Positions 5,053 to 9,475 of a DNA stretch of 64,000 bases are shown here, in pieces. The DNA is from Vulcanimicrobiota bacterium (GTDB lineage Bacteria > Vulcanimicrobiota > Xenobia > Xenobiales > JADMJV01). Each line of letters opens with the position of its first letter. Position 1 is the stretch's first letter. Below the pieces are notes generated by a model. It did no database searches. It was not told the DNA's origin and saw only the letters and a program-made list of their open reading frames with translations. The translations under genes were made by a program, and so were the position numbers. The DNA is taken from assembly GCA_019637395.1 (NCBI GenBank), contig JAHBVR010000020.1:62001-126000 (forward strand), in the 5' to 3' direction.

Positions 5053-6081
5053 TTATTGGAGGCAGTCTTCTTTCCAGATCTGCAGAAGCTCGGCCGGAGG
5101 CACCGCTTCCAACTGCGAGTAATCACAGGCGGCCGGGGGCTTATCGGGGCGCCAGCGCAGGAAGGTGGCGGCGTGGCGGAAGCGGTCTCCTTGCATGTGG
5201 TCATAAGAAACTTCACAGACGAGTTCGGGGCGCAGGCTTTGCCAGCTCAAGTCTTTGCCGGCGCTCCAACGGCTGGGGGCGCCGGGGGTGCGGCCAGATC
5301 CGAAGGAGGCTTCGCCGCTTTCGTCCAGATAGGGCCTGAGCGTTTCGACCAGTTCGAGCTTTTCTTGGGCTTTAAAGGACGAGGTGTGGCCGACGTGCTG
5401 CAACACTCCTCGGGAATCGTAAAGTCCCAACAGCAGCGAGCCCACTCCTTTGTCGTCCTTGGCCCAGCGCAAACCACCCAGCACGCAGTCCGCCGTGCGC
5501 CGGTGTTTGAGCTTGACCATGGCGCGGATATCGGGCTGATAGGCCAGCTCGGGGTCTTTGGCGATGACCCCGTCGAAGCCGGCTCCTTCGAAACGCTGGA
5601 ACCAGTCACGGGCGGTTGGCATGTCTTCGGTGCAGGGAGTGATGATGCAAGGCTTGAGTTTCTCGAGCCTGCGCCGGCGCTCCCGTTGAGGCAGCTGGCT
5701 GAGATCTTCGTCTCCCACGGCCAGCAAATCGAAAGCCACGAAAGAGGCCGGAGTTTCCCTGGCCAGTTTGTGAATGCGCGAAGCGGCCGGGTGAATGCGC
5801 ATGAGCAGGGCATCGAAATCCAGGCCCCGGACGGTTTTTATGACGATCTCGCCGTCGAGCACGACCGGAGCGGGAAGGGTGGCCTTCAGGTGCTCTTCCA
5901 GCTCGGGAAAATAGCGCCCCAACGGCTTGCTGTCGCGGCTCTGGATATAGATTTCCTCACCGTCGTAAAAAACCAGGCTGCGAAAGCCGTCCCATTTGGG
6001 TTCGTAAAGAAAACCTTCGGGCCAGTTCTGACTGAGGGCCGAGAGCATCGGTTTGAGGGGAGGCTGGAGCGGCAATTTCAC
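5053..6081 (-). CDS. ligD: ATP-dependent DNA ligase, NHEJ LigD/LigC type
   Basis: 342 residues, the length of a stand-alone ligase domain. Visible nucleotidyltransferase motifs are the adenylation site EPKWDGFRS, SRDSKPL, LDGEIVI, FVAFDLL, DGVIAKD and VKLKHRRTADCVLGG. The C-terminal third has the OB-fold features of LigD/LigC ligases. It seals double-strand breaks in the cytoplasm during bacterial non-homologous end joining. The start is GTG, overlapping by four bases the stop of the small exported gene 6078-6503. With the polymerase gene at 6500-7504 it forms a split LigD. No Ku gene is in the window. Confidence 0.92.
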   Translation of the reverse strand: MKLPLQPPLKPMLSALSQNWPEGFLYEPKWDGFRSLVFYDGEEIYIQSRDSKPLGRYFPELEEHLKATLPAPVVLDGEIVIKTVRGLDFDALLMRIHPAASRIHKLARETPASFVAFDLLAVGDEDLSQLPQRERRRRLEKLKPCIITPCTEDMPTARDWFQRFEGAGFDGVIAKDPELAYQPDIRAMVKLKHRRTADCVLGGLRWAKDDKGVGSLLLGLYDSRGVLQHVGHTSSFKAQEKLELVETLRPYLDESGEASFGSGRTPGAPSRWSAGKDLSWQSLRPELVCEVSYDHMQGDRFRHAATFLRWRPDKPPAACDYSQLEAVPPAELLQIWKEDCLQ

Positions 6082-6503
6082 GGGCCCACCTCGCTCTTCT
6101 CTTGACCGGCGGCGTTGAAGATGAAGCGGTAATAGCCGTAGGCGGCCGGGTGATTACCGGTCGGGAGGCGAACCCAGACGCCTACTTCCACGCCTCCCTC
6201 CGGCAGGCTTTGCACTTTCGGTTCCTGCCGGGGAGTCAGGCCGGCGAGATCGACAGCCTTGACCCAGGCCAGGGCCAGTTCCACCCGATTGGCCGGATCG
6301 GCCCAACCGAAGTGGGGCAGAATGGCCCCGGCCGCTTCCGCCAGCGAGTATTGTTTGCCCTGATAAAGGACGGCGTACGGCATAGCGCCGCGATCATGGG
6401 CGAACCGGGTGAGCACGCTCACTTCGATTTTTAGACGTTGGCTGACGGTTTGGGCACCCACCGCGGCCGTCAACAGCAGAGTCAAAAGCATGGAGCGTAT
6501 CAT
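6078..6503 (-). CDS. Small exported protein inside the NHEJ operon
   Basis: 141 residues beginning with a clear signal peptide (MIRSMLLTLLLTAAVGAQ), followed by a soluble domain containing LYQGKQYSLAEAAGAILPHF and a C-terminal GYYRFIFNAAGQ. I do not recognise the family. It overlaps the polymerase gene upstream and the ligase gene downstream by four bases each, so the three must be co-translated. An exported product between two cytoplasmic repair enzymes is odd. It may be a hitch-hiker insertion, or the signal-like start may be an inner-membrane anchor. Confidence 0.75.
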   Translation of the reverse strand: MIRSMLLTLLLTAAVGAQTVSQRLKIEVSVLTRFAHDRGAMPYAVLYQGKQYSLAEAAGAILPHFGWADPANRVELALAWVKAVDLAGLTPRQEPKVQSLPEGGVEVGVWVRLPTGNHPAAYGYYRFIFNAAGQEKSEVGP

Positions 6504-7504
6504 GTCTTCCGCTTACGGGAGGGCTGCACACGGGCGGGCTCGCCGTCTCCTTTGGGAAAATGAGGCGGCCAGGGCGCGTCGCCCAGGCCGCCGGCTTCGT
6601 CTCGTTTGGACAGGTCCAGCAATCCGTCCAGCGATCCGACCGCTTCGTCGATACCCTCACCCGGGTCGCCCAGTTTAGAAAACCGTGCAGGCACGGTGTC
6701 GATGGTGAAGGCGGCCGGATCGACTTCCGCCACTTCCTCCCAGAAGAGCGGAGTGGAGACGCGGGCGTCCTTGGTCGGACGCAAGGAATAGGCGGAGGCC
6801 ACCGTGCGGTCCCGAGCGTTCTGATTGAAATCGACAAAGACGCCGCGGCGCTGTTCTTTCCACCAGGCCGAAGTGGCCAGATCAGGCGCGCGGCGCTCCA
6901 CTTCGCGGGCCAGCGCCAGGGCGGCCCGGCGCACCAGGGTGAAGTTCCAGACGGGTTGGATGCGCACGTTGATGTGGATGCCCCGGTTGCCCGAGGTTTT
7001 GGGCCAGCCGGTGAGGCCGTGGTCGCGCAGCACGTCGCGAGCCACCAGGGCCACCTGGCGCACCATGTCCCAGGAGGCTTCGGGAGTGGGGTCGAGGTCG
7101 ACGCGCAGTTCGTCGGGATGGTCGGTGTCTTCGGCGCGCACCGGCCAGGGGTTGAGATCCAAACAACCGAGGTTGGCCACCCAGAGCAGGCAGGCTCCGT
7201 TGTCGCAGACGACTTCGTTGGCCGAGCGGCCGCTGGGAAAATAAATCGTACAGATTTTCACGAACTCCGGGACTTTGTCGGGAGCGCGCTTTTGATAGAA
7301 GGGTTCACCTTCGGCTCCGTCCACGAAGCGCTTGAGGATCATCGGGCGGTTGCGCACGCCGCGCACGGCGCCCGGGGCGACCTTCTGGAAATATCGGACC
7401 ACATCCAACTTGGTTTTGCCCAGGGCTGGATAGAAAATCTTGTCAGGATTGGTGATGGTCACCGTGTGCCCGTCGATTTCTATTTCCAACTGCTTTTTGG
7501 GCAT
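6500..7504 (-). CDS. ligD: NHEJ primase-polymerase (LigD polymerase domain)
   Basis: 334 residues matching the archaeo-eukaryotic primase-like polymerase domain of LigD. It has ITNPDKIFYP at the start, FYQKRAPDKVP, the catalytic DxD in LRVDLDPTP, and KTSGNRGIHINVRI with its catalytic His. It fills gaps and adds nucleotides at broken ends before ligation. In most bacteria this domain is fused to a ligase; here it is a separate first gene of a three-gene minus-strand operon. Its start is 52 bp from the divergent gene at 7557. Confidence 0.92.
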   Translation of the reverse strand: MPKKQLEIEIDGHTVTITNPDKIFYPALGKTKLDVVRYFQKVAPGAVRGVRNRPMILKRFVDGAEGEPFYQKRAPDKVPEFVKICTIYFPSGRSANEVVCDNGACLLWVANLGCLDLNPWPVRAEDTDHPDELRVDLDPTPEASWDMVRQVALVARDVLRDHGLTGWPKTSGNRGIHINVRIQPVWNFTLVRRAALALAREVERRAPDLATSAWWKEQRRGVFVDFNQNARDRTVASAYSLRPTKDARVSTPLFWEEVAEVDPAAFTIDTVPARFSKLGDPGEGIDEAVGSLDGLLDLSKRDEAGGLGDAPWPPHFPKGDGEPARVQPSRKRKT

Positions 7505-8397: not shown

Positions 8398-8784
8398 TCA
8401 GCGCGCCTTCCTGGCTGCCGCGTCGGTTTCTTGGCCGAGTTGAGCGGCCGTCATACTACCAAGCCTGGTGTGCACCACTTTGCCCTTGGAATCCACCCAC
8501 AGGGTAGCGGGAAGCGATTGATCCTTGCCGCGTAGCGGGGTGTACTTCTTGAACTCCGGGGTCTGGTCCTCATCCACGTTGATCATGACGAGATTCACTT
8601 TATTTTTATAAGCAGACTCAAACTGAGTCCAGGCGGGCTCCATCGCCACGCACGAGCCTCACCAAGGAGCTCCGAAGTGCACTACGCTGAGCCGGGCCTT
8701 GGGAGTCGAAGAGCTGTGCGTCTTCATCTCCGGCCTGGCCCAGGCGAAGCTGCTTACCAGCAGCATCAATAGAAGGGTCCGCAT
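8398..8784 (-). CDS. Thioredoxin-like selenoprotein (in-frame UGA, WUGSC)
   Basis: Reading minus from ATG at 8784 gives a signal peptide (MRTLLLMLLVSSFAWA) and then SVVHFGAPW, an in-frame UGA at 8659-8661 (codon 42), GSC, and an open frame to 8398, 128 residues in all. Thioredoxin-fold proteins have W-C-x-x-C here, so the UGA replaces exactly the first redox cysteine and is best read as selenocysteine. The rest keeps thioredoxin traits: VNLVMINVDEDQTPEFKKY, the cis-Pro strand SLPATLWVDSKGKVV and GSMTAAQL. A conventional call would keep only the 83 residues after the UGA, starting at 8649. A hairpin 35 nt past the UGA fits a bacterial SECIS. A pseudogene is possible but less likely given the second case next door. 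Confidence 0.85.
8614..8630 (-). promoter_or_regulatory. Candidate bacterial SECIS hairpin for the WUGSC gene
   Basis: On the minus strand GACTCA and TGAGTC form a perfect 6-bp stem, extendable by one G-U pair, around the loop GTT. There are 35 bases between the UGA and the loop, and the loop starts with G. Both fit the published bacterial SECIS rules (short apical loop with an early G, 16-37 nt from the UGA). Confidence 0.65.
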
Positions 8785-8938
8785 AACCGCTATTTCCTTT
8801 CCGGTCCCGCTTGCGAAGACCAGGCAAGTCTTTCCCCAGCTGAACCAGGGGCGAACCCTGGAAGGACAGCCAGAGCGGAAAGCGCACCTCTCGGTGAGGG
8901 CTCCTGCCCTCTATTTCTTATCAAGGAGAACCACAGCC

Positions 8939-9475
8939 GTGCGTAACCTACGCGTGTTACTGGCCCTGGCGCTGGTTTCCGTGGCGACCTGGGCGGTGCC
9001 TCAATCAGGCCCGGCCATCGGCGACCACCTGCCGGCCCACCATCCCCAGCACATTACCGGCCCCGATGCGGGCACCGATACCTGCCCCGTTTGAAAGTAC
9101 GGTACCAGACCTGCGTGCCAGGTCTTCGTTAACGGACAAGACGACGCCAACACCAGGCCGCTGCTCAGCCTGCTGAGCAAAGCCTCCAAAAGCAACGAGA
9201 AAGCCGAGTTCAAGAGCTTCATTCTATTTGTGCAGGACGACGCGCAACATCTCAAGCAATTGAACGCCGCCGAGAAGGCCGACAACGTCGGACTGGCTCT
9301 GCTCAAAGGTAAAAGCGACGAAGCCATACAGGGCTATAAGATCAACACCGACCCCGGTGTAAAAAACACCGTGATCGTCTATAGCAAACGCAAAGCCACC
9401 GCGGTCTTTGTGAATTGGACACCGAAAGAGACGAATCAGTTGAACGCCGCCATAACGGCCGCAGTCAACAACTAA
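8939..9475 (+). CDS. Exported CPV-U redox selenoprotein (in-frame UGA)
   Basis: A GTG start at 8939, about ten bases after AAGGAG, gives a signal peptide (MRNLRVLLALALVSVATWA). Then follow IGDHLPAHHPQHITGPDAG, TDTCPV, an in-frame UGA at 9092-9094 (codon 52) and KYGTRPACQVFVNG, with the frame open to TAA at 9473-9475, 178 residues. The frame is CxxU, and thioredoxin-like relatives would be expected to carry CPVCKYG here, so the UGA sits on the second redox cysteine. After the UGA, FKSFILFVQDD and KNTVIVYSKRKATAVFVNW look like thioredoxin-fold strands. The gene is divergent from the other UGA gene. A hairpin 18 nt past the UGA fits a SECIS. The exact redox partner is unknown. Confidence 0.85.
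9107..9125 (+). promoter_or_regulatory. Candidate bacterial SECIS hairpin for the CPVU gene
   Basis: AGACCT (9107-9112) and AGGTCT (9120-9125) form a perfect 6-bp stem around the 7-base loop GCGTGCC. Eighteen bases separate the UGA from the loop, and the loop begins with G, both within the bacterial SECIS rules. Confidence 0.7.

Follow-up and report, generated by a model that had tools for sequence, protein, structure and literature searches.

Two neighbouring genes that are each interrupted by an in-frame UGA at a redox motif raise a double question: are both of them selenoprotein genes, and does their adjacency make them parts of one system? Such a divergent pair, here called P1 and P2, lies in a 64,000-nucleotide stretch of DNA (the window) from a Vulcanimicrobiota bacterium (assembly GCA_019637395.1, contig JAHBVR010000020.1, positions 62,001 to 126,000). 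An earlier sequence-only reading had taken the two genes for exported thioredoxin-fold selenoproteins that together form one extracytoplasmic redox system.

Frames of the divergent pair

The two frames, their strands and coordinates, and the gap between their starts are as that reading had given them (Table 1). Each gene holds a single in-frame TGA, placed at a cysteine position of a redox motif (WUGSC in P1, CPVU in P2), and is otherwise open to its end. Readthrough translation gives MRTLLLMLLVSSFAWARPEM...VVHFGAPWUGSCVAMEPAWTQFES... for P1 and VRNLRVLLALALVSVATWA...HITGPDAGTDTCPVUKYGTRPACQVFVNG... for P2. From the pattern of their N-termini, we infer that both proteins are likely exported; a hydrophobic N-terminus much like that of P2 is present in the homologues read.

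Table 1. Features of the P1 and P2 genes and of the region between them, in window coordinates.
Feature	Position	Strand	Description
P1	8784-8398	-	128 aa; ATG start at 8784; thioredoxin-type, active site W-U-G-S-C
P2	8939-9475	+	178 aa; GTG start at 8939; CPVU motif, family without name
P1 UGA-Sec codon	8661-8659	-	residue 42; Cys in homologues such as L049 and L062
P2 UGA-Sec codon	9092-9094	+	residue 52, within CPVUKYG; Cys in most Armatimonadota homologues
Intergenic region, divergent	8785-8938		154 bp; ribosome-binding-like AAAGGAAA before P1, AAGGAG before P2
P1 probable signal peptide	8737-8784	-	MRTLLLMLLVSSFAWA; n-, h- and c-region pattern by eye, no dedicated predictor
P2 probable signal peptide	8939-8995	+	VRNLRVLLALALVSVATWA; from sequence pattern
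Predicted P1 SECIS hairpin	8614-8630	-	GGACTC(AGTTT)GAGTCT; loop ~34 nt after UGA
Predicted P2 SECIS hairpin	9107-9125	+	AGACCTG(CGTGC)CAGGTCT; loop 19 nt after UGA

Stop usage and conservation of the UGA codons

Among the 32 confident genes of the window, 13 end in TAG, 12 in TGA and 7 in TAA; all four stops that had earlier been named as ordinary TGA are indeed TGA, and P1 itself terminates with this codon. Because TGA is a normal stop here, any recoding must be context-dependent. Genome-wide reassignment of TGA to an amino acid, which the sequence-only reading had already discounted and for which nothing specific speaks, conflicts both with this stop usage and with the Sec-specific factors encoded in the genome, and its probability is vanishingly small. 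Elsewhere in the window, positions 5053-7504 of the minus strand carry an NHEJ-like cluster of a LigD-type primase-polymerase gene, with its primase domain identified by Pfam, and a predicted ATP-dependent DNA ligase frame, assigned from reading only.

Under translation table 11 the in-frame stop truncates both P1 and P2, as it would if the TGAs were ordinary nonsense mutations in decaying genes or sequencing errors. The comparison with relatives speaks against this explanation. A strong match to P2 is present in seven Eremiobacterota genomes, drawn from the same genus, family and order; in every one the gene carries a single TGA, and this TGA falls on the U of CPVU. In P1, the TGA stands at the same codon in each of the four genomes with an orthologue (this genome, G002, G003 and G004). 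The same codon is thus TGA across several independent assemblies with no other stop, and the disruption of the frames by further stops in relatives, which the sequence-only reading had associated with decay, is not seen. Moreover, selection on the part downstream of each TGA is purifying: in comparison with G003, dN/dS there is 0.05 for P2, and P1 gives 0.1-0.25 in comparison with G003 and G002. The comparison of P2 with G002 gives 0.64 over the whole length, because of an unaligned one-codon insertion, and 0.17 over the first 30 codons. With this selection, a SECIS-like hairpin and the full Sec machinery set against it, decay or sequencing error has next to no probability, and the earlier dismissal of chance mutation stands.

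Further Sec-thioredoxins, whose motifs are of the WUGxC type, are encoded in G000, G001, G002, G005, G006, G015 and G017. One of them is a second Sec-thioredoxin of this genome (L050, G000:C9:83137-83505), which has a lipoprotein-like N-terminus, a WUGAC motif and a SECIS of the same type; G002 has a close homologue of it, and G001 a WUPAC form.

Decoding of UGA as selenocysteine

The genome encodes tRNA-Sec (62 bits; gathering score 47), SelB (402 bits against a cut-off of 242) and SelD (359 bits), the latter in its Cys form. On contig C34, selA adjoins selB, and selD lies next to both (selA-selB-selD). SelB also exceeds its cut-off in all seven Eremiobacterota genomes with a Sec form of P2. 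In G098, an armatimonadotal genome, the SelD gene has a Sec codon of its own (CAGU), and 68 bp downstream of it, on the same strand, follows a P2 homologue of the Cys form (L028:3841-5555); among the P2 loci fetched, this is the only one with SelD beside P2.

P1 and P2 are both almost certainly selenoproteins, as the sequence-only reading had proposed: each has an in-frame UGA where homologues have Cys, a predicted 3' stem-loop, and the Sec machinery in the same genome. Taken together with the established mechanism of bacterial Sec insertion (PMC9312934), these parts point to SelB-directed decoding of each UGA. In each mRNA, a SECIS-type hairpin whose loop contains GU would come immediately after the UGA, and SelB with Sec-tRNA-Sec (products of SelA and SelD) would read this UGA as selenocysteine, with termination at other UGAs. 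The locus documents Sec decoding in Candidatus Eremiobacterota; in the literature searched, no paper combining the terms selenoprotein and Eremiobacterota was found.

Hairpins downstream of the UGA codons

By chance, a hairpin of equal strength follows about 10% of the TGAs in the window, so that a hairpin after a TGA is, by itself, weak evidence for Sec. The weight of the hairpin evidence lies instead in conservation, in covariation within the P1 family, and in absence from Cys homologues. In the P1 family, all 11 aligned Sec-thioredoxins have a hairpin of the form NNNCTC(AGTTY)GAGNNN, in which 98.5% of cells pair and three of the six pairs of the helix have changed on both sides. Its covariation is 0.485; shuffles give 0.191, with none of 500 reaching the observed value, and sliding gives 0.00-0.16. 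The hairpin loop forces the peptide QFE, and no hairpin of this type was seen at the matching position in the Cys thioredoxins fetched.

The P2 hairpin takes the form NGACCTG(CGTGC)CAGGTCN or AGACCTGC(GGT)GCAGGTCT, with its loop 19-20 nt after the TGA. It is kept in all seven Eremiobacterota Sec genes and recurs in Sec-form Armatimonadota (L106 and L123); covariation is thin, with one pair changed on both sides. A strong stem stands at this site in 7 of 12 Sec forms, compared with 0 of 24 Cys forms (Fisher p ~1e-4, with related sequences counted as independent), and the peptide encoded by many of the stem-less Cys forms is almost identical. Within the interval tested, a simple hairpin is missing from the armatimonadotal Sec copies L120-L122, L126 and L129. 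A SECIS pattern scan recovered Sec-thioredoxins only, and its reversed control was empty. A coding-score scan of the window, an insensitive one given that it ranked P1 23rd, returned no other convincing Sec gene.

P1 as a probably exported thioredoxin relative

The description of both genes as thioredoxin-fold genes holds fully for P1, which matches Pfam Thioredoxin (PF00085) with 43.3 bits against a cut-off of 23.5 and has the WCxxC-type site as WUGSC. It scores 45.1 bits against the 96.8-bit cut-off of the NCBIfam thioredoxin equivalog TIGR01068. P1 is best described as a divergent and probably exported relative of thioredoxin, a known kind of selenoprotein. As a thioredoxin-type oxidoreductase (UGSC), it would probably reduce disulfides in the cell envelope. 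A plausible electron donor is the single DsbD-like protein of the genome, which has a transmembrane domain and a C-x-x-C region near the C-terminus and would probably recharge P1.

P2 and its family

For P2, the same description survives in the predicted fold, and a thioredoxin profile match is lacking. Neither P2 nor any of seven homologues is significantly matched by a model of Pfam or NCBIfam release 20.0, CxxU families included, and a P2 profile finds no match among solved structures (PDB). Searched as a single sequence, P2 matched designed repeat proteins only in the PDB, and these matches were judged spurious, the profile search being empty. Homology to the P1 family was likewise rejected (hhalign probability 1.8%). 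Nor is P2 recognisable among the 119 families of a 2026 inventory of selenoproteins (PMC13188914), as tested through the Pfam and NCBIfam model libraries. P2 thus appears to represent a selenoprotein family uncatalogued in Pfam, in NCBIfam and, as far as the model libraries tell, in that inventory.

The family extends well beyond this lineage. Of 291 Armatimonadota genomes sampled, 102 have a P2 homologue, in most cases with CPVC or CPPC as its motif. Twelve armatimonadotal matches contain one TGA, which was confirmed to lie at the CxxU codon in ten genomes. A maximum-likelihood tree of the family implies six Sec/Cys changes by parsimony, at least three of which are forced by well-supported branches. 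Sec forms of P2 would normally be annotated as truncated fragments. Because the SECIS hairpin arises in the codons of the same conserved residues (RPAVQV), the family, with its many Cys homologues and scattered Sec copies, lends itself to asking why and how catalytic cysteines are replaced by Sec. At the loci examined, no conserved neighbours hinting at a function were found.

A more distant P2-like branch in Armatimonadota (L127, L129, L125 and L126) mixes Sec and Cys, with the motifs CYRC/CYRU, CYVU or CYIU. Unnamed proteins similar to this branch presumably occur in Planctomycetes as well. A further homologue, L096 (G137:C68:878-1417), has an in-frame TAA according to the genome search and is possibly a broken copy.

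Predicted fold and chemistry of P2

AlphaFold (AF2) models of P2 and of a Cys homologue (pLDDT 77 and 85, pTM 0.75 and 0.81) have a thioredoxin-like fold, and P2 is assigned to this fold by prediction only. The top Foldseek matches of these models are ResA, DsbE-like proteins and peroxiredoxins, with TM-scores for the ResA/DsbE matches of about 0.6-0.65 of the query and 0.7-0.8 of the target. In thioredoxins, the CxxC motif follows the core strand. In the P2 models, the place after the core strand that usually holds CxxC reads VNGxD and is Cys-free, and CPVU/CPVC precedes the strand (residues 59-65 in P2, 61-66 in the Cys homologue). P2 shows no evident cis-Pro; a conserved K-N-T/I stands before the next strand instead.

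The displaced motif and the K-N-T/I in place of a cis-Pro are what one would expect if P2 were no oxidoreductase and its CxxC/CxxU bound a metal or were structural. Nevertheless, repeated replacement of Cys by Sec is a usual mark of catalytic redox Cys, for which Cys/Sec pairs serve as a criterion (PMC9312934), and every Sec copy of P2 read has Sec at one, and only one, of the two motif positions. A non-redox role is, on these grounds, unlikely. If P2 is an oxidoreductase, its CxxU/CxxC, on a short helix before the core strand, would form a reversible selenenylsulfide or disulfide, and the protein would cycle between a reduced thiol/selenol state and a C49-U52 selenenylsulfide. Its most likely role would be that of an envelope thiol or peroxide reductase. 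A fuller proposal, slightly less likely than not, is that P2 founds a new family of exported oxidoreductases, spread over two phyla. In this family, the CxxU/CxxC would sit at the other end of the core strand of a thioredoxin-like fold, and repeated changes between Cys and Sec at the catalytic residue would have gone along with gain or loss of the SECIS hairpin in the same codons.

Origin and meaning of the adjacency

The claim that the divergent pair forms one extracytoplasmic redox system does not fare as well as the claims about each gene. In its explicit form, P1 (UxxC) and P2 (CxxU) would make up a co-regulated, exported, selenium-dependent thiol relay running from P1 to P2 and expressed from a shared divergent promoter. 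The head-to-head arrangement with its short gap, the likely export signals and the Sec at a redox motif in both proteins, and the presence of both genes in four genomes are all consistent with such a relay. However, the sequence-only reading had itself tied the idea to conservation of the pair, and the pair is unlinked in relatives: in the three other genomes with both genes (G002, G003 and G004, of the same genus), the two are found on separate contigs, in several cases far from a contig end, and none of their neighbours there recurs in the window. G001, G005 and G006, in turn, have P2 but no P1 orthologue (the P1 search covered Eremiobacterota genomes), so that co-occurrence of the two genes does not hold either. 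Shared promoter elements, expected in 8785-8938, did not emerge: no sigma-70-like site was found in this region, and intergenic conservation around P2 ends about 16 bp upstream of its start, with no conserved unit in relatives. The candidate shared promoter was rejected.

The position of P1 in relatives suggests how the pair arose. P1 follows the gene of a large VIT/vWA-TPR protein, by 15 bp in G002 and by 56 bp in G003. In this genome, the orthologue of that gene is 76-78% identical and lies on contig C3 in an intact locus without P1 (L143, G000:C3:12000-26000). Both flanks of the locus match G003, and 266 bp replaces about 2.2 kb; compared with G003, the missing stretch held P1 and an S9-peptidase-like gene. 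Because this locus is intact without P1, the most likely course is that P1 was relocated beside P2 in this lineage, a direction that rests on two relatives; duplication followed by loss of the old P1 copy would look the same as a move.

A relay is, in view of the unlinked loci, the probable move of P1, the genomes with P2 alone and the lack of a conserved shared promoter, quite improbable; electron transfer from P1 to P2 is biochemically possible, and nothing genomic singles it out. The locus very probably holds two independently conserved selenoprotein genes, adjacent here because P1 moved beside P2 and decoded through SelB and SECIS hairpins, with P1 a probable envelope oxidoreductase and P2 a putative envelope thiol or peroxide reductase of an uncatalogued family. 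Sec coding, the conservation of each gene and the non-conservation of the pair were computed; the substrates, like the electron donor and export, are proposed from what the genes encode. More generally, adjacent selenoprotein genes need not make a system.

Comparison with known selenoproteins and thioredoxin-like proteins

Sec-containing thioredoxin (PF00085, UxxC) is an experimentally verified entry in Table 1 of the 2026 inventory (PMC13188914). P1 resembles it in its thioredoxin domain, W-U-G-x-C site, conserved Pro92 and SECIS-type hairpin. It differs from cytosolic thioredoxin in its likely signal peptide and in a score far under the NCBIfam equivalog cut-off.

CxxU selenoproteins in the same inventory include SelW-like, AhpD-like, Prx-SUH, UshA-like and Trx7/PDZ proteins, among others (PMC13188914). 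P2 shares with them the CxxU motif and a presumed selenenylsulfide chemistry, and is set apart from them by the lack of a Pfam or NCBIfam match, which extends to its seven homologues. Likewise, P2 is similar to TlpA/ResA/DsbE oxidoreductases and to peroxiredoxins in its predicted fold and likely signal peptide. In contrast to these proteins, to which it has no sequence match, it would have a CxxU/CxxC that precedes the core strand instead of following it.
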